The notes under the pieces were generated by a model. The model saw only the letters and a list, made by a program, of their open reading frames with translations, ran no database searches and had not been told where the DNA came from. Below are positions 3,961-44,525 of a stretch of DNA of 64,000 nucleotides, piece by piece. The first letter of the stretch is position 1, and the number at the start of each line of letters is the position of its first letter. Origin of the DNA: Halopseudomonas sabulinigri (GTDB taxonomy: Bacteria > Pseudomonadota > Gammaproteobacteria > Pseudomonadales > Pseudomonadaceae); contig NZ_LT629763.1 of NCBI RefSeq assembly GCF_900105255.1, positions 3,482,001-3,546,000 on the forward strand, read 5' to 3'. The position numbers and the translations under genes are program-made.

Positions 3961-4443
3961 TTAGCGCTCCTCAAACCGCCCGGCCAGCCGATTCTTGCGT
4001 ACCTGATCGACCGGGAAAATCCGTCCGCTCATGGCGACGTACACCCCGTGCGGCATGCAGTTCAGGGCGCCCACGGCCAGCCCCAGGTTGAACAGCGCGT
4101 CTGAGTCGCGAAAGCGCGCTGGCTGCATGGCGCCGGTCAGCACTATTACCTTGCCGCTGATATCAGCCAAGCCGGCGCCGGTCACTGTCATGGTGTCGGT
4201 GCCGTGGGTGATCAGGATGTGCTCATAGGGGCAGGCGCTTACCTTGTCATGGATCAGCTGGCGGTCGCGATCGTCCAGCTCCAGGCTGTCCTTTCGGGTC
4301 AGGGATTCGATGTTATAGTCGAAGCCGACCCGCGCCTGCTGTAGCAGCTCGCCGGCGATGGGCTCGCCGATCTGGTATTCGCTGAGCGCGTCGAAATAGA
4401 GTTTGTCCAGCGTGCCGCCGGTACTGAATATCTGTACGAACAT
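3961..4443 (-). CDS. Asparaginase N-terminal-domain-only protein
   Basis: A 160-residue protein that reproduces the N-terminal domain of type I/II L-asparaginases. It carries the nucleophile-containing TGGT motif at residues 8-11 (STGGTLDK) and the second conserved motif HGTDTM. Usual asparaginases are about 330 residues with a C-terminal domain that completes the active site between subunits; that domain is absent, and the frame ends cleanly with charged residues rather than at a frameshift. Short homologues of this kind are, to my knowledge, known in Pseudomonas. Whether it is catalytic is unknown. It is divergent from the GIY-YIG gene with only 18 bp between the start codons. Confidence 0.85.
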
Positions 4444-4461
4444 GACCCTTCACTTCCTGAA

Positions 4462-4863
4462 ATGATTGCTATGCCTACCGATACCGCGACCACTGTTGAC
4501 CCTTCTGCGCCGCCGGAGCTGGCAGTGCGTATCTGGTGGGTCTACATGGTGCGCGCGGAGAACGGCCATCTGTATACGGGAATCAGCATAGACCCTGAGC
4601 GCCGCTTCCGGGAACACCTGAGTGGCAAGGGTGCGCGCTTTTTCAATCGCAGCCCGGCCAGCGCGCTGGTCTGGTGGCAGCGCTGCGCAGGGCACGGCGA
4701 TGCCCTGCGCCAGGAGCTGCAGATCAAGGCGCTGGCCAAACGGGCCAAGGAACGACTCATCAGTCAGTTCGATGATCACCAATTTGCCGGCGCGAAGCCC
4801 TGTGCAGCGTCGGGCTCAGCGTCTAAGCTGGGCGCAAACCAACCGGAGACAGAGCATGAGTGA
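4462..4863 (+). CDS. GIY-YIG nuclease-family protein (YhbQ/UPF0213-like)
   Basis: A 133-residue protein whose core begins at about residue 25 with the GIY-YIG signature in degenerate form ([16 protein letters not shown]), followed by the conserved Arg and His (ERRFREH) and a Lys-rich helix ([16 protein letters not shown]). This is the compact single-domain YhbQ/UPF0213 family, related to the UvrC and Slx1 nuclease domain and linked to DNA damage handling. The first ~24 residues are low-complexity, so the true start may lie downstream. Its stop overlaps the next gene's start by 8 bp, so the two are probably co-translated. Confidence 0.88.
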
Positions 4864-39274: not shown

Positions 39275-39658
39275 TCAGCCGCGCTGCGGCTGTTCTGCGC
39301 TGAGCGTGATAGAGACCGATTCGGCAAAGCGCAGGGCGTGCGGTTTGTCTACTTCAACCTCGGCGTAGTGAACCTGCGGGTGCTGCATGACGATGTCGAG
39401 CAGTTCCTGGGTCAGGCGCTCCAGCAGCGCAAAGCGGTTGCCCTCTACGTGTGCAATCAGGGCCTTGGTGATAGTGCGGTAGTTCAGCGCCTTGTCTATC
39501 TCATTGACGGCTACCGCATCGGCGGCAGGATAGAGAATGGTGGCGTTGATCAGAATGTCCTGCTGATTGCGAACTTCGTCATCGTTGATGCCGATGTAGG
39601 TGCGCAGACGCAGATCCTTGATACGGATACGGGCCAGGCCGGGGGAAAGCATGCTCAT
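39275..39658 (-). CDS. folX: Dihydroneopterin triphosphate 2'-epimerase FolX
   Basis: A 127-residue FolB/FolX-fold protein. [18 protein letters not shown] and [24 protein letters not shown] match the FolX branch, which epimerises 7,8-dihydroneopterin triphosphate to the monapterin form. With FolE and FolM it makes tetrahydromonapterin, the cofactor known to serve phenylalanine hydroxylase in pseudomonads. The stop codon of folE precedes it by one base, so the three genes form one unit read from 40939 downward. Confidence 0.93.
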
Positions 39659-39659
39659 G

Positions 39660-40241
39660 TCAGCTCCGGGCGATCAGTTGCAGGAATTCCTGCCGGGTGT
39701 TGAAGGAATCGCGGAAGGCGCCGAGCATCACCGAGCTGTGCATCGACGAGTTCTGCTTTTCCACACCGCGCATCATCATGCACATGTGTTTGGCCTCAAT
39801 TACCACCGCGACGCCAGCGGCGTTGGTGACCTGCTGCAGCGCCTCGGCGATCTGGCGGGTGAGATTTTCCTGGATCTGCAGGCGACGGGCAAACATATCG
39901 ACAATCCGCGCGACCTTGGAAAGGCCAATCACCTTGCCGGTGGGGATGTAGGCCACGTGCGCCTTGCCGATGAACGGCAACATGTGGTGCTCGCACAGGG
40001 AGTACAGCTCGATGTCCTTGACGATCACCATCTCATCGTTGTCGGAGTCGAACAGCGCGCCGTTGACGATCTGCTCCAGTGACTGGTCGTAGCCGCGGCA
40101 GAGAAACTGCATGGCCTTGGCGGCGCGCTCCGGGGTGCCCTTGAGCCCATCCCGCTCGGGCTGCTCGCCCAGGTTGGTCAGGATCTCGAGATAATTCTGT
40201 GACAGTTTTTCCAGGCTCATGGTGTCTTCTCGTCGGCTCAT
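39660..40241 (-). CDS. folE: GTP cyclohydrolase I
   Basis: A 193-residue (186 if the ATG at 40220 is used) GTP cyclohydrolase I, converting GTP to 7,8-dihydroneopterin triphosphate. Zinc ligands are visible in LCEHHMLPF (Cys, His) and in the later [10 protein letters not shown] (Cys), and the [14 protein letters not shown] segment is typical. The ATG at 40241 overlaps the folM stop (ATGA), favouring the longer form. In P. putida a folE gene is light-induced through PplR (LitR) proteins; here a LitR-like regulator is divergent from this unit. Confidence 0.95.
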
Positions 40242-40939
40242 TTGAGGTGCCTGCCACCGTTCAGTGGCAGGCTGCTTCCGGTAATGTAGGGGTTGTCCAG
40301 CAAAAAGCGGATTGACTGGTAGACCACCTCCGGCCCTGGCTCGATACCCAGGGCCGATTTTTCCAGCGCCTTGGTGCGGTAGGCGTCTTCGTCTTCGTCG
40401 TTGAACATGATCAGTGCCGGGTTGAGGCAGTTGACCTTGATGCGCGGTGCGAGTTTGGCGGCAAAGGAGCGCGATAGCCCCTCAAGGCCGGCTTTGCTGG
40501 CGCAGTAGGCTATGTGTTTGGCGCTGCCCTTGCGGGTAACATCGTCGCTCAGGTGAATGATGTCACCGCTGCTGTTGGCGGGGAACAGGTCGGCACACTG
40601 GCTGTTGATCATATAGGGCGCTTGCATGTGCACCATGAACATCTGCTGCAGCGCGTCAGGGCCCTGCTGATCGTCCAGCCACACCGAGGCATTGTGAATG
40701 ATCGCGCGCAGGCTGACGCTGCGCTCGTGCAGTTGGTCGATCAGACCCTGAATGCCGGCCGGGGTAGAAAAGTCGGCGAGCAGCACCTCTGCTCCAGCGG
40801 GAATAGATGCCGCGCGCTCCGCGTCCAGTGCGCGGCAGCTGATGATCACATGATGGCCGTCTTCGATCAGGCGTTGCGCGCAATGCAGGCCTATACGTTG
40901 AGCGCCGCCAGTGACAAGAATGCTTGGTTGGTTACTCAT
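40238..40939 (-). CDS. folM: Dihydromonapterin reductase FolM
   Basis: A 233-residue short-chain dehydrogenase with TGGAQRIG nucleotide-binding loop (residues 10-17), NAS motif (IIHNASVW) and YxxxK catalytic pair in IAYCASKAG. FolM reduces dihydromonapterin (and dihydrofolate weakly) with NADPH. It is first in folM-folE-folX; the leader faces the LitR-like gene across 220 bp that contain a GTAC-repeat site. Confidence 0.93.
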
Positions 40940-41092
40940 GGCTCACTTGAATCGGTAACAGTTTCTTGCCGGCGGTTGATTGAGCGGGCAGCGCAGAAAA
41001 GCAGGCGGAGTCAGTCAAGGCAGGCTTCAGCCAGCAATGGTAACACGCGCAGACCGACCAACGGCCAGCCTCGCTGCCGCAAGGGCGGCCAG

Positions 41093-41126
41093 ATTATGTA
41101 CAATGGTCGTACAACTACCCCGTACC
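41093..41126. promoter_or_regulatory. Divergent promoter region with GTAC direct repeats, candidate LitR operator
   Basis: Three GTAC-centred half-sites lie in tandem: TGTACA (41097-41102), CGTACA (41108-41113) and CGTACC (41121-41126), with start-to-start distances of 11 and 13 bp. They overlap two -10-like hexamers: CATAAT on the minus strand (41098-41093) for folM and TACAAT on the plus strand (41099-41104) for the regulator, both with weak -35 regions. CarH/LitR proteins bind direct repeats of this kind; a TGTACA-type repeat is reported for P. putida PplR1, though with a different spacing. Confidence 0.6.
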
Positions 41127-41159
41127 TGTGGCAACAAGTTGCTTGTCTGTGACCATACC

Positions 41160-42104
41160 ATGATCAATTCTGTCCCCGGCCTCGCATTGGCCAATGAAAC
41201 GCTTTACCCCATACGCGAAGTTTCGCGACTGTCCGGTGTCAATTCGGTGACTTTGCGCGCCTGGGAGCGTCGTTATGGCTTGCTGGTACCGCAGCGGACC
41301 GACAGCGGCCACCGTCTTTATTCAATGCGTGACATCGAGCGGGTCAAAGCCATTGTCAGCTGGATTGCTCGCGGCGTGCCCGTCAGTAAGGTGGCGTCCA
41401 TCATTGACCGCCAGGCGCTGCCGAGCCTGAGCATTGCGCCGGTCGCGCAGACGGACAGCTTGGCCGACGAGCAGTTGCAAGCGGCCCGTGAGCAACTCAT
41501 CGCTGCAGTGGCGCGCGGCGACCTGCTTGGACTGGAGCGGGTCTATGGCCAGCTGTTTGCCCGTTGGCCGCTCACGCAGTTGTGCAACGACATACTGCTG
41601 CCAGTCTGGCGACAGTACCGGGTGCAGGCAAAGCAGGGCGGAGCCAGTGCGTCCTGGGCGCTGCTGGATGGTTTTCTGCGGGGGCGTTTGCTGCAGCGTA
41701 TCGCGTTTTTGCAGCCTGACCGCGCCAGTGTGCTGCTGGTCAGTCTGCAACCGCGGGAAGAGGAAGTTGAGGTGTTGTTGGCGGCACTTTTTCTGGCGGA
41801 TGCCGATATTAATATTGCCTACCTGTCATGCCTGCCCGCACCTGAAGAACTCTTGCTGATGTGCGACGGTGGCGGGCATCAGGCCTTGTTACTATTCAGT
41901 GACAGGGCGCTGGAGGCGGGCGTGCTAACGCGCCAGCTGCCGCGCCTTAATCAGCAGCTTGAGTGTCCGGTAGCGGCACTGGGTGCCTGTTGCGAACTGC
42001 AGGCAGTGGAGCTGCAGCAAGCGAATATCAGTTGCTTGGGCCTGGCGCAGCGCAGCCTGACCGACAGTGTGCAGCAATTGCTCGCTGGGCGCTTTGACGG
42101 CTGA
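41160..42104 (+). CDS. LitR/CarH-type MerR regulator, class II (PplR-like)
   Basis: A 314-residue regulator: MerR helix-turn-helix at residues 15-83 (IREVSRLSGVNSVTLRAWERRY, split here as IREVSRLSGVNSV then TLRAWERRY), then a four-helix segment and a Rossmann-like domain, the order of B12-binding CarH/LitR. However, the Wx9EH site is altered (W166 followed by Arg-Leu at the EH positions) and the B12 axial His motif is replaced by an acidic run (PREEEVEV, residues 198-205). It should not bind cobalamin, as in class II LitR such as P. putida PplR, which instead work with short LOV proteins. Such a LOV gene lies 1.4 kb downstream. ATG 41160 is chosen over the longer frame from 40980. Confidence 0.85.
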   Translation: MINSVPGLALANETLYPIREVSRLSGVNSVTLRAWERRYGLLVPQRTDSGHRLYSMRDIERVKAIVSWIARGVPVSKVASIIDRQALPSLSIAPVAQTDSLADEQLQAAREQLIAAVARGDLLGLERVYGQLFARWPLTQLCNDILLPVWRQYRVQAKQGGASASWALLDGFLRGRLLQRIAFLQPDRASVLLVSLQPREEEVEVLLAALFLADADINIAYLSCLPAPEELLLMCDGGGHQALLLFSDRALEAGVLTRQLPRLNQQLECPVAALGACCELQAVELQQANISCLGLAQRSLTDSVQQLLAGRFDG

Positions 42105-42252
42105 ACCGATTCGCTTACCAGCGGTCGATAATCAGTGTGGGCGGTGTACTGGCTACTTGCCAGCTGCCTTTTTTTTGATCAGTATGAAGACTGCAGCAGA
42201 CCGCTTGGTGCAGGCGAGAATCGCCTGCTGCTGTCATCTGGAAAGAGTGGAC

Positions 42253-43494
42253 ATGCCAAGGCATAAAGAAACCGTCAAATCGCTGCAGGTGATGAAAATC
42301 CAGACTGACCAGGCCAGGCTGGGAATGTACATTTCCGAGCTCGATCTGCCCTGGCTGGAAACGCCCTTTCTGTTTCAGGGCTTCATGCTTGAGGATCCAG
42401 ATGACTTGATGACGCTGCGCGGGCTCTGCCGGTATGTGTTTATCGATGTCATGAAAACCCGCGTACCGGTGACTGAGCTTGAGCAGCTGCCGGTTGCCAG
42501 TAAGCCCATAGCCTACCCTGTCAGTAGCGACGTTCAAGCCGAAATTCATAGCGCCAGCCGCCACTATGGCAAGGCCTTCAGGCACGTGCGTGTGCTGTTG
42601 GAGCGTATACGCACGGGTGAGGAAAACTCGCTCGACGAGGTACCCGAACTGGTCCGAGGCTGCGTTGAATCTATTATTCGCAATCCTTCGGCCCTGCTGT
42701 GGCTGACGCGCATCAAACACCGAGATCAGTACACCGCCGAACACTGCATGAATGTGGGTGTGCTGGCGATGGCGCTTGGCCGTCAGCTGGGCATCGGCCG
42801 TAAACACATCGAGCTGCTCGGGCTTTGCGGCATGTTGCATGATGTGGGCAAGATGCGCTTGGATCAGGACATTCTCAACAAGCCGGGCCGGCTCACCGCG
42901 GAAGAGTTTGATCACGTCAAACTGCACGTGGATTTCGGTCATGAAGAGCTTAGCCAGGACCCCGATCTTCCAGAAGAAGTACTCAAAGTTGTATTGCAGC
43001 ACCATGAGCGGCTGGACGGAAATGGCTATCCCAAGGGGATACCCGCGCAGGGGCTGGATTTTTATACCCGGGCCATCACCATTGTGGATGCCTATGACGC
43101 TATTACCAGTCGTCGTTGCTATAGTTCGGCCCGTTCGTCAGCCGATGCGTTGAAAATACTTTATGAGGGGCGGGGTGCCCAGTTCGACGAAAAACTGGTG
43201 ATCAAGTTTATCGAATGTATTGGCCTGTATCCGCCGGGTGCTTTGGTTGAGTTGAGCTCAGGCGAGGTAGGGGTGGTGCTGGCGGTTGATCCGCAACACC
43301 GTCTGCTGCCCAAGGTGGCCATCGTGCGGGATGCGCAAAAACAGCCGATTCAGCAGCAGATAGTCGATCTGGCAGCTAATCGCAGCGAGGATGGAGCACC
43401 TGATCTACGCGTACGCCAGGTACTGGTGGATGGCAGCCACGGTATCGATCTGGAAGCCTTCACGCAGGCGAATATCAATCTCAGCGGGCGCTGA
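42253..43494 (+). CDS. HD-GYP domain protein, probable c-di-GMP phosphodiesterase
   Basis: A 413-residue protein: an N-terminal DUF3391 domain (ARLGMYISELDLPWLETPF at about 21-39), a linker, and a C-terminal HD-GYP domain with metal-binding HD (H196, D197 in MLHDVGKMR) and the diagnostic HHERLDGNGYPKG near residues 250-262. These proteins hydrolyse c-di-GMP to pGpG or GMP. The ATG at 42253 has GGAAAGAG upstream; earlier in-frame codons lack the domain. It sits between the LitR-like and LOV genes, suggesting a light-linked lowering of c-di-GMP; the window's PelD is a c-di-GMP receptor. Confidence 0.93.
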   Translation: MPRHKETVKSLQVMKIQTDQARLGMYISELDLPWLETPFLFQGFMLEDPDDLMTLRGLCRYVFIDVMKTRVPVTELEQLPVASKPIAYPVSSDVQAEIHSASRHYGKAFRHVRVLLERIRTGEENSLDEVPELVRGCVESIIRNPSALLWLTRIKHRDQYTAEHCMNVGVLAMALGRQLGIGRKHIELLGLCGMLHDVGKMRLDQDILNKPGRLTAEEFDHVKLHVDFGHEELSQDPDLPEEVLKVVLQHHERLDGNGYPKGIPAQGLDFYTRAITIVDAYDAITSRRCYSSARSSADALKILYEGRGAQFDEKLVIKFIECIGLYPPGALVELSSGEVGVVLAVDPQHRLLPKVAIVRDAQKQPIQQQIVDLAANRSEDGAPDLRVRQVLVDGSHGIDLEAFTQANINLSGR

Positions 43495-43500
43495 TCGTTA

Positions 43501-43941
43501 CTACTCTGCGGTGGGCGGCGCTTGCAGTGCGCGCAGCTCTTGCTCCAGCGCCGCCGCTTTCTCTTTCGCCTCAACCTCTGCGCTCACGTCTTTCTGTATA
43601 CCGATGAAGTAGGTCAGCTTGTCCGCCTCGTTGAATACCGGCGTGATCGAAAGTTCGTTCCAGAACAGGCTGCCGTCCTTGCGGTAGTTGCGGATGGTCG
43701 CTCGGCAGGGCCGGCCCTCACGTATGCCGTCGCGGATAATCTGTAAACCCTCCTGGTCGGCATCATCTTTCTGCAGAAAGCGGCAGTCCTGATACAGAAT
43801 CTCGTCCGCGCTGTAGCCGGTGAGCGCCTCGAACGCCGGGTTCACATAGATCAGGATGTTGTCGTCGCCTTCCTGCTCGGCAACCACAATACCGTCGTTG
43901 GAAGCATTGACCACCAGCTGCAGTAATTTGGCATTGATCAT
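43501..43941 (-). CDS. Short LOV blue-light photoreceptor (PpSB-LOV family)
   Basis: A 146-residue single LOV domain with short flanking helices. The photoactive cysteine is C53 in YQDCRFLQ; other flavin-contacting residues fall at N85, N95 and Q116 (FIGIQKD), the same numbers as in P. putida PpSB1-LOV. The start MINAKLLQ matches that family, so the upstream in-frame ATG at 43974 is not used. A C-terminal coiled helix (VEAKEKAAALEQELRAL) likely mediates dimerisation. In P. putida such proteins are required for light induction through PplR regulators. Convergent with the HD-GYP gene, 6 bp apart. Confidence 0.95.
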   Translation of the reverse strand: MINAKLLQLVVNASNDGIVVAEQEGDDNILIYVNPAFEALTGYSADEILYQDCRFLQKDDADQEGLQIIRDGIREGRPCRATIRNYRKDGSLFWNELSITPVFNEADKLTYFIGIQKDVSAEVEAKEKAAALEQELRALQAPPTAE

Positions 43942-43972
43942 GGCGTACGCAGACTCCTCTTTGTTTTTCGGC

Positions 43973-44000
43973 ATTCTATAGCAGTGTATCCGGCTGTCCA
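43973..44000 (-). promoter_or_regulatory. Candidate sigma-70 promoter of the LOV gene
   Basis: On the minus strand TGGACA (44000-43995) and TAGAAT (43978-43973) are separated by 16 bp, each one mismatch from consensus. The expected start point near 43966 leaves about 25 nt before the ATG at 43941, with GAGGAG in between. Confidence 0.55.
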
Positions 44001-44072
44001 GTTACGCCGCGACCAGCGCCGGGCTTTACGGCATAATGGCCGGCCAATCTTGGCGACGAAAAGAGGTGAGTG

Positions 44073-44525
44073 ATGCATCTGGTGATTGTCAGCGGTACGG
44101 TGTTTGGCACCGCGGACCTGGTGGCGGATGAGGCGCAGAGTCTCTGCGAGTCAGCCGGGTTGAGGGTCAGCCGACTCAGAGCGCTCACTCTGGACGCATT
44201 GCTGGCGCTGGAGCCGGAGGCGCTGCTGCTATGTACCTCGACGACGGGTATGGGCGAGCTGCCCGAGCCGTTGGTACCGCTGTTTCATGAGATGCGTGAC
44301 CGCTTCCCGTTATTGACCGCCAGGCCGTTTGGCGTGATTGCGCTGGGTGATGCGGCTTATGGCGACACCTTTTGTCAGGCAGGCGAGGAGTTTCGTGAGT
44401 TGCTGCTGGAATTGCAGGCCCGCGAAGCCATCCCGATGCTTCGTCTGGATGCCAGCGAAACAGTCACGCCGGAAACCGATGCAGAGCCTTGGCTGCAGCA
44501 GTTCGTTGGCGCGCTACAGGCGTGA
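44073..44525 (+). CDS. Flavodoxin-like protein (MioC type)
   Basis: A 150-residue flavodoxin-fold protein. The FMN phosphate-binding loop is SGTVFGTA (residues 7-14) and the isoalloxazine loops are TSTTGMGELP and GDAAYGDTFC. This is the short-chain MioC/flavodoxin group that carries electrons, in E. coli for biotin synthase and others. The double start GTG-ATG (44070/44073) is resolved to ATG, with AGAGGTG upstream. It ends one base before the convergent Crp/Fnr gene. A role for BioB, 18 kb away, would be speculation. Confidence 0.88.
   Translation: MHLVIVSGTVFGTADLVADEAQSLCESAGLRVSRLRALTLDALLALEPEALLLCTSTTGMGELPEPLVPLFHEMRDRFPLLTARPFGVIALGDAAYGDTFCQAGEEFRELLLELQAREAIPMLRLDASETVTPETDAEPWLQQFVGALQA

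Follow-up and report, generated by a model that had tools for sequence, protein, structure and literature searches.

A probable LOV-LitR blue-light switch next to folM-folE-folX in Halopseudomonas sabulinigri, with a candidate operator before litR2

Blue-light control of transcription by a short LOV protein and a class II LitR regulator has been described in Pseudomonas mendocina NBRC 14162. In this strain the class II LitR protein PmlR2, encoded in a locus orthologous to the one treated here, is a repressor; lit PmSB-LOV binds the N-terminal domain of PmlR2 and lifts repression, for which C53 is required (PMC9758184). According to the accessible parts of that report, FolM, FolE and FolX are listed in the PmlR2/PmSB-LOV region, PmlR2 binds the folM promoter region (folM box TGTACA-N12-GGTATA), and light induction is weak for folM (2.4-2.5-fold) and folE (1.6-3.3-fold), 1.4-1.5-fold for pmlR2, with LOV expression constant (PMC9758184). 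In the present study a window of 64,000 nucleotides of the Halopseudomonas sabulinigri genome (positions 3482001-3546000 of a 4.03-Mb single contig, NZ_LT629763.1) was analyzed, which carries a short LOV gene, a class II litR gene (litR2) and folM-, folE- and folX-type genes. It is likely that the LOV protein and LitR2 constitute a blue-light derepression switch with its site before litR2. The core of this switch is already known, and its mechanism has been published beyond the P. putida work named in the initial annotation of the window. New here are the absence of the fol operator, a LOV protein with A61 and L66, and the HD-GYP or PilZ-like genes found in the slot beside the LOV gene.

The window and the PmlR2/PmSB-LOV/folMEX region of P. 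mendocina share the core gene set, the divergent layout, a class II LitR near a short LOV, and C53. LitR2 and LOV of P. mendocina FFL34 are 45% and 71% identical to the window proteins, respectively. However, the slot gene of FFL34 is PilZ-like (L247) while that of the window encodes an HD-GYP protein, and FFL34 has the folM operator TTGTACA-N12-TGGTATAAC, which the window lacks. The P. putida proteins PplR1-3, PpSB1-LOV and PpSB2-LOV have in common with the window the short LOV type with identical photocycle residues and the class II LitR, but R61 and R66 of PpSB1-LOV are replaced by A and L in the window LOV. In the BluR/BluF pair of E. coli the receptor is presumably a BLUF rather than a LOV protein. 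There too a MerR-family regulator is under the control of a separate blue-light receptor (PMC9758184). Class I CarH/LitR regulators (Thermus, Bacillus) resemble LitR2 in their MerR helix-turn-helix (HTH), their overall layout and their 11-bp direct-repeat operators TnnACA (PMC9304148, accessible part), whereas LitR2 appears to have lost the B12 ligands, and light would be sensed by a partner protein.

The fol genes are all on the minus strand: a folX-like gene (dihydroneopterin epimerase/aldolase family; 39275..39658; Pfam FolB 4.2e-25), folE for GTP cyclohydrolase I (39660..40241; Pfam GTP_cyclohydroI 5.9e-75) and a folM-like short-chain dehydrogenase gene (40238..40939; Pfam adh_short), the latter two with a 4-bp overlap. 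They are followed by litR2 (41160..42104, plus), an HD-GYP gene (plus), the LOV gene (43501..43941, minus), a flavodoxin gene (plus) and a CRP/FNR-type regulator gene (minus). The folX, folE, folM, MerR/LitR and LOV genes of the initial annotation were all found by Pfam at these coordinates; the strand of the LOV gene, left unstated there, is minus, as the plus strand contains stops. Sensor, regulator and presumed target had been regarded as adjacent. Indeed, they are clustered and the fol genes are divergent from litR2, but the ~1.2-kb HD-GYP gene (42253-43494), which had not been mentioned, separates the regulator from the sensor.

LitR2 (314 amino acids) matches Pfam MerR_1 (6.6e-16) and, by phmmer, CarH (1.6e-19 over residues 11-262); it combines a MerR HTH with a degenerate CarH-like C-terminal part and is placed among the class II LitR proteins. 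In our own reading of the CarH alignment, at what we take to be the positions of Wx9EH and of the axial His, this His and the EH are lost, as had been noticed before, and the W is replaced as well.

The LOV protein (146 amino acids, Pfam PAS_9) has C53 and Q116 at the numbers assigned previously, and C53, R54, N85, N95 and Q116 are kept in all 99 LOV proteins compared (98 loci and the window). With a photoactive Cys, the flavin mononucleotide (FMN) contacts Q116, N85, N95 and R54, and no effector domain, it is a short LOV of the PpSB/PmSB type; its closest solved structure by sequence is 7r5n, 'Sensory box protein' (3.5e-68). In PpSB1-LOV R61 and R66 hold the FMN phosphate, and the accessible parts of the studies report that dark recovery is ~280-fold faster upon double R61/R66 mutation and ~100-fold faster with R66I alone (PMC5314338, PMC6047819). 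The window LOV carries A61 and L66 in place of this arginine pair of the slow-recovering PpSB1 type. Residue 61 is R in 88 of the 99 proteins, H in 6, A in 2 (window and L071), C in 2 and F in 1; residue 66 is L in 90, I in 8 and V in 1. Since L66 is the rule, only A61 is unusual in the window LOV. It is predicted from these residues that its dark recovery is faster than that of PpSB1-LOV. The window offers a LOV in which both published slow-recovery arginines are replaced. The LOV start at 43941 fits with a promoter-like sequence, TGGACA-16-TAGAAT (44000-43973, minus), which overlaps the start codon of a longer open reading frame (ORF). Such a site is found about as often by chance (1 versus 1.3 in shuffled sequences), and its support therefore comes from similar sequences seen by eye upstream of the LOV genes of relatives. 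Short LOV proteins (69-71% identity) also turned up in L249 and L273, two records that bear the names Thioalkalivibrio denitrificans and Paenalcaligenes hominis; L273 also has a LitR and a photolyase match; horizontal transfer or a mislabelled contig is possible in both cases.

Genome context agrees with LitR2 being the partner of the short LOV. Among 37 genomes of the genus, LOV (E <= 1e-30) and LitR (E <= 1e-20) are each present in 30, and the same seven congeners lack both (G003, G004, G007, G015, G021, G025, G028). In a family sample of 298 genomes LOV was found in 227 and LitR in 272. Of the 26 genomes without LitR, six of which were identified by elimination, 23 have no LOV match; these genomes are related, so that the counts are not independent. 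The three exceptions are G124, which is 85% complete, and G162 and G285, with weak LOV matches (E 6e-32 and 2.6e-31). Gene order was compared in 98 loci, 27 congeneric and 71 from outside the genus. The order fol-litR2-LOV-flavodoxin occurs in 21 of the 27 congeneric loci and one ends at a contig edge, while in five the LOV gene neighbours another LitR gene and the stretch also contains a photolyase gene. The initial annotation had proposed such a comparison across the Pseudomonadaceae; both the conserved order and the co-occurrence of LOV and LitR exceed chance. Together with the biochemistry of the P. mendocina orthologues, known to us from the accessible part of the report (PMC9758184), this co-occurrence favours the sensor-regulator pairing that had been assumed.

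The only LitR-type site of the fol-litR2 intergenic region is the tandem TGTACAATGGTCGTACA (41097-41113, plus), TGTACA-N5-CGTACA with an 11-bp period, 47-63 bp upstream of litR2. This N5 form is present in 17 of 88 litR upstream regions, taken only for matches above 90 bits, against 0.005 expected from mononucleotide shuffles, and among half-site pairs an offset of 11 is dominant (22; next highest 5). In the 4.03-Mb genome TGTACANNNNNBRTAYAA has a single exact match, the window site, and 11 matches with one mismatch, whereas control searches with the reversed pattern, allowing up to one mismatch, yielded 4 and 1. The operators of CarH consist of direct repeats of 11 bp, nnnnTnnACAn, as far as the accessible text describes them (PMC9304148); the window site has two repeats only, of which the first fits and the second has C for T. 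Position and conservation suggest that LitR2 binds the N5 tandem site, and autoregulation of litR2 is likely.

It has been shown by others in P. mendocina that LOV binds LitR and counteracts repression (PMC9758184, accessible part). The present observations concern gene content, co-occurrence and box positions, and the behaviour proposed for H. sabulinigri is derived from the orthologues and from these positions. In the dark LitR2 would occupy TGTACA-type boxes and repress. Under blue light C53 of the short LOV would form an adduct with FMN; the LOV protein would then bind the HTH half of LitR2, and LitR2 would leave the DNA. The adjacent box would be the tandem site before litR2, so that locally the switch would act most directly on litR2 itself. 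The folM-folE-folX genes may also respond via this site, ~50 bp before their likely -10, or may now be constitutive. The HD-GYP protein would be a lineage-specific accessory lowering cyclic di-GMP (c-di-GMP).

Several observations weigh against this switch. The Pfam search of LitR2 gave no B12-binding_2 (PF02607) match at E <= 0.001, unlike PmlR2, although the corresponding stretch is still aligned with CarH by phmmer. Of the 272 family genomes with LitR, 48 have no LOV match; most of these have single, weaker LitR matches, but those of G194, G250 and G264 are strong. The N5 form, which differs from the published N12 consensus, is missing from 71 of the 88 litR upstream regions. Moreover, the folM operator-promoter of relatives is absent within 260 nt upstream of the window folM and in 11 congeners (L071-L078, L083, L084, L093), and pmlR2 itself is only 1.4-1.5-fold light-induced in P. 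mendocina according to the accessible data (PMC9758184). The published N12 consensus was rejected as the window site, since neither strand of the 64-kb window contains a match to T[GA]TACA-N12-[TG][GA]TA[CT]A; its two exact matches in the genome lie elsewhere, one upstream of the LitR1-photolyase cluster and one in L028 (both described below).

In the alternative favoured initially, sensor, regulator and target form one compact module in which the fol genes are light-induced through the intergenic region shared with litR2. It is supported by P. mendocina, where according to the accessible part of the report folM and folE are induced by light and PmlR2 binds in the promoter region of folM (PMC9758184), and further by the divergent layout and the LitR-type site within the shared 220-bp region. 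In relatives the folM site reads TTGTACA-N12-TGGTATAA, with the box over the -35 followed by an extended -10. When the count is restricted to loci whose FolM match has an identity of 50% or more and begins ahead of residue 15, TRTACR-N12-RRTATA occurs in 38 of the 62 regions upstream of folM (61 loci and the window), and a near-identical pattern in 37 of 61, against 0.00 expected (mononucleotide shuffles). This filter excluded L080, L081, L086 and L097, where FolM matches reach 33-36% identity at best; P. mendocina FFL34, outside the 62, also carries the operator-promoter. Twelve non-congeneric loci are likewise without the exact pattern, and by eye variants with N13 (L168, L172, L173) or a damaged box (L135, L149, L153) were seen. 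It is this conserved operator-promoter that has been lost in the lineage of the window. The window folM probably has its extended -10 at TGTTACCAT (41036-41048, minus), where relatives show TGTTAACAT/TGCTACCAT by eye, and a LitR box is missing from its usual position; the remaining tandem site is closer to litR2 and ~50 bp upstream of this likely -10. With the fol operator lost and the one exact tandem site of the genome 47-63 bp before litR2, fol appears to be a weaker target than had been assumed, and its role as the adjacent target, demonstrated in P. mendocina, is no more than possible in the window. We regard light induction of fol through LitR2 as a serious possibility that is nevertheless somewhat on the doubtful side. 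That the pterin product may supply a photolyase cofactor was a suggestion of the initial annotation; FolX and FolM are known as enzymes of the tetrahydromonapterin branch. The genome contains another, uninterrupted folM-like/folE pair at G000:3311380-3312683 (L193:3381-4112 and 4124-4684, both plus); its FolE (G000:3312111) is 83% identical to the window FolE. A stop flagged there lies ahead of the start codon. Because of this pair GTP cyclohydrolase does not depend on the window fol operon alone. The window would be a natural example of a light repressor whose site before its own gene seems to have been retained, and whose site before the published target seems to have been lost.

Two further readings were considered. 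LitR2 could be a B12 photoreceptor in its own right, of the class I CarH type, with LOV acting on something else. The alignment with most of CarH (residues 11-262) would fit this idea, but the W, EH and axial His that would contact B12 are replaced in our reading of the alignment, and light induction through class II LitR orthologues is independent of B12 according to the accessible text (PMC9758184). LitR2 as a B12 sensor was rejected and is very improbable indeed. It is also conceivable that the HD-GYP protein functions as an output of the switch or as its partner, blue light altering c-di-GMP through it. The HD-GYP gene lies between litR2 and LOV in 9 of the 13 congeners that have it, and in the fetched loci it is on the litR2 strand in 7 of 7 and tail to tail with LOV in 8 of 8; in other genera a YcgR/PilZ-fold protein is encoded in the same slot or behind LOV. 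However, HD-GYP is absent from the LOV locus in 21 of the 30 LOV-bearing congeners, four of the 13 copies are located elsewhere, with unrelated genes in the two neighbourhoods examined, and in the window a terminator-like hairpin and no TGTACA were found between litR2 and HD-GYP. HD-GYP is taken as an accessory that may or may not respond to light, and its role as output seems unlikely. The LOV-LitR2 switch acting before litR2 remains the preferred explanation.

The HD-GYP gene (42253..43494, plus; GGAAAGAG precedes its ATG at 42253) codes for a DUF3391-HD-GYP protein in which HDVGK and HHERLDGNGYP are intact, predicting a c-di-GMP phosphodiesterase. It is separated by 6 bases from the LOV gene, to which it is tail to tail. 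The terminator-like hairpin with T tract 3' of litR2 is located at 42149..42163 (plus); seven such sites occur in 40900-44120 against 3.2 expected in shuffles. Orthologues (E <= 1e-130) were found in 13 of the 37 congeners, nine beside LOV and four elsewhere, corresponding to 9 of the 30 LOV-bearing congeners with HD-GYP in the litR2-LOV slot, and all 13 sequences retain HDVGK and the HHE...GYP motif. HD-GYP may or may not be an ancestral member of the locus; locus and non-locus copies are intermixed in an HD-GYP tree with several weak forks and two incomplete paralogue rows. On the other side of the LOV gene of the window a flavodoxin (mioC-like) gene (44070..44525, plus; Pfam) is a conserved neighbour, adjoining LOV in many relatives, and falls outside the proposed switch.

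PilZ-like genes are found 3' of LOV in 32 of the 98 loci, always on the same strand (32/32), with gaps of 22-71 nt in 28 loci and 159-467 nt in four. P. mendocina FFL34 has such a gene behind LOV (L247:6514-7122, plus), and PME15565 in the accessible part of PMC9758184 is probably the same slot gene. Among 10 members searched with Pfam PilZ, 3 gave a match at E <= 0.1, the strongest with 2.3e-7. An AlphaFold2 model based on 24 sequences (mean predicted local distance difference test score 81.2) gave MotI/DgrA, MrkH, YcgR and VCA0042 as top fold matches (E 2.3e-5 to 8.8e-4), with whole-chain root-mean-square deviations of 12-17 A and template modelling scores by query of 0.34-0.41, and with deviations of 3.3-4.6 A when several PilZ domains are taken singly; the family profile found only two unrelated matches among PDB sequences (E 0.77 and 0.95). 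Compared with what we take to be the usual c-di-GMP motifs, those of the slot proteins look altered (RPWR; ExSxxG), and c-di-GMP binding is not implied by them. A short LOV that recurs with c-di-GMP-type proteins of two unrelated kinds hints at a link of the module with c-di-GMP. It may be speculated that the litR2-LOV spot is a docking slot, with a PilZ-fold protein behind LOV or HD-GYP behind litR2, through which blue light would act on c-di-GMP in addition to transcription, and that in the lineage of the window, which has HD-GYP and has lost the fol operator, the switch was rewired from pterin synthesis to c-di-GMP and self-control; we consider this quite unlikely. Among the titles and abstract openings listed in a literature search, none dealt with LOV and PilZ or HD-GYP in such a setting; LOV1 of P. 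cichorii is a LOV-histidine kinase, described in the accessible text without mention of c-di-GMP.

A second LitR gene, LitR1 (G000:3451744), is located in a cluster with genes for a photolyase, a short-chain dehydrogenase, an amine-oxidase-type flavoprotein and a cyclopropane-fatty-acid-type synthase, which we infer to be one operon. TATACA-N12-TGTATAAT occurs 41 bases upstream of its first gene, and the cluster is probably the main light-induced output. A perfect palindromic TATACA-N12-TGTATA was also noticed in the window's genome (L028:8824-8847), by eye between MetX-like and glutamine-synthetase-like ORFs.

In relatives TGTACA occurs within 260 nt downstream of litR2 in 40 of 157 regions against 6.5 expected, with some places counted twice under different ids and some matches inside genes, as in the window. 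Many of these boxes precede an element of ~50 nt, consisting of CTGCGCA, an 11-bp stem, often a C-rich loop, and a T tract (L090:8224-8273, L085:7840-7889, L105:7186-7238 and L136:5097-5150, all minus; L188:4400-4450, plus). Two-sided changes were seen in 5 of the 11 stem pairs (15 rows, MAFFT), and seven sources scanned against Rfam gave no match at gathering scores. A model of the element, built partly on loci later searched, was run on whole genomes, including genomes outside model building, and with a cutoff of E <= 0.01 found it in 57 of the 298 family genomes (in 53 with E <= 2e-4), as a single copy in 53 of the 57; with strict filters it was not found in the window's genome. According to the locus files, without L151 (same place as L292), 19 of 45 elements lie behind an acyl-CoA dehydrogenase gene, which has boxes in its 160 nt upstream in 19 of 19 cases, another 23 lack such a gene but show boxes within 140 nt, and 3 have neither. 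At least two boxes were counted for 23 of the 26 elements without the gene, against 0.24 expected (mononucleotide shuffles). The element may be a light-controlled small RNA that arose when a light-induced gene lost its coding part and its 3' end was left, or a conserved terminator. Among the papers listed in a literature search none concerned a small RNA in the LitR/LOV regulon, and the accessible text of PMC9758184 does not mention 'small RNA', 'sRNA' or 'acyl-CoA'. The acyl-CoA dehydrogenase gene (L275:3096-4874, minus; L289, L141, L142, L161) is preceded by several TRTACA/TGTAYA boxes, is directly behind litR2 in some genomes, and is a probable further member of the light regulon.

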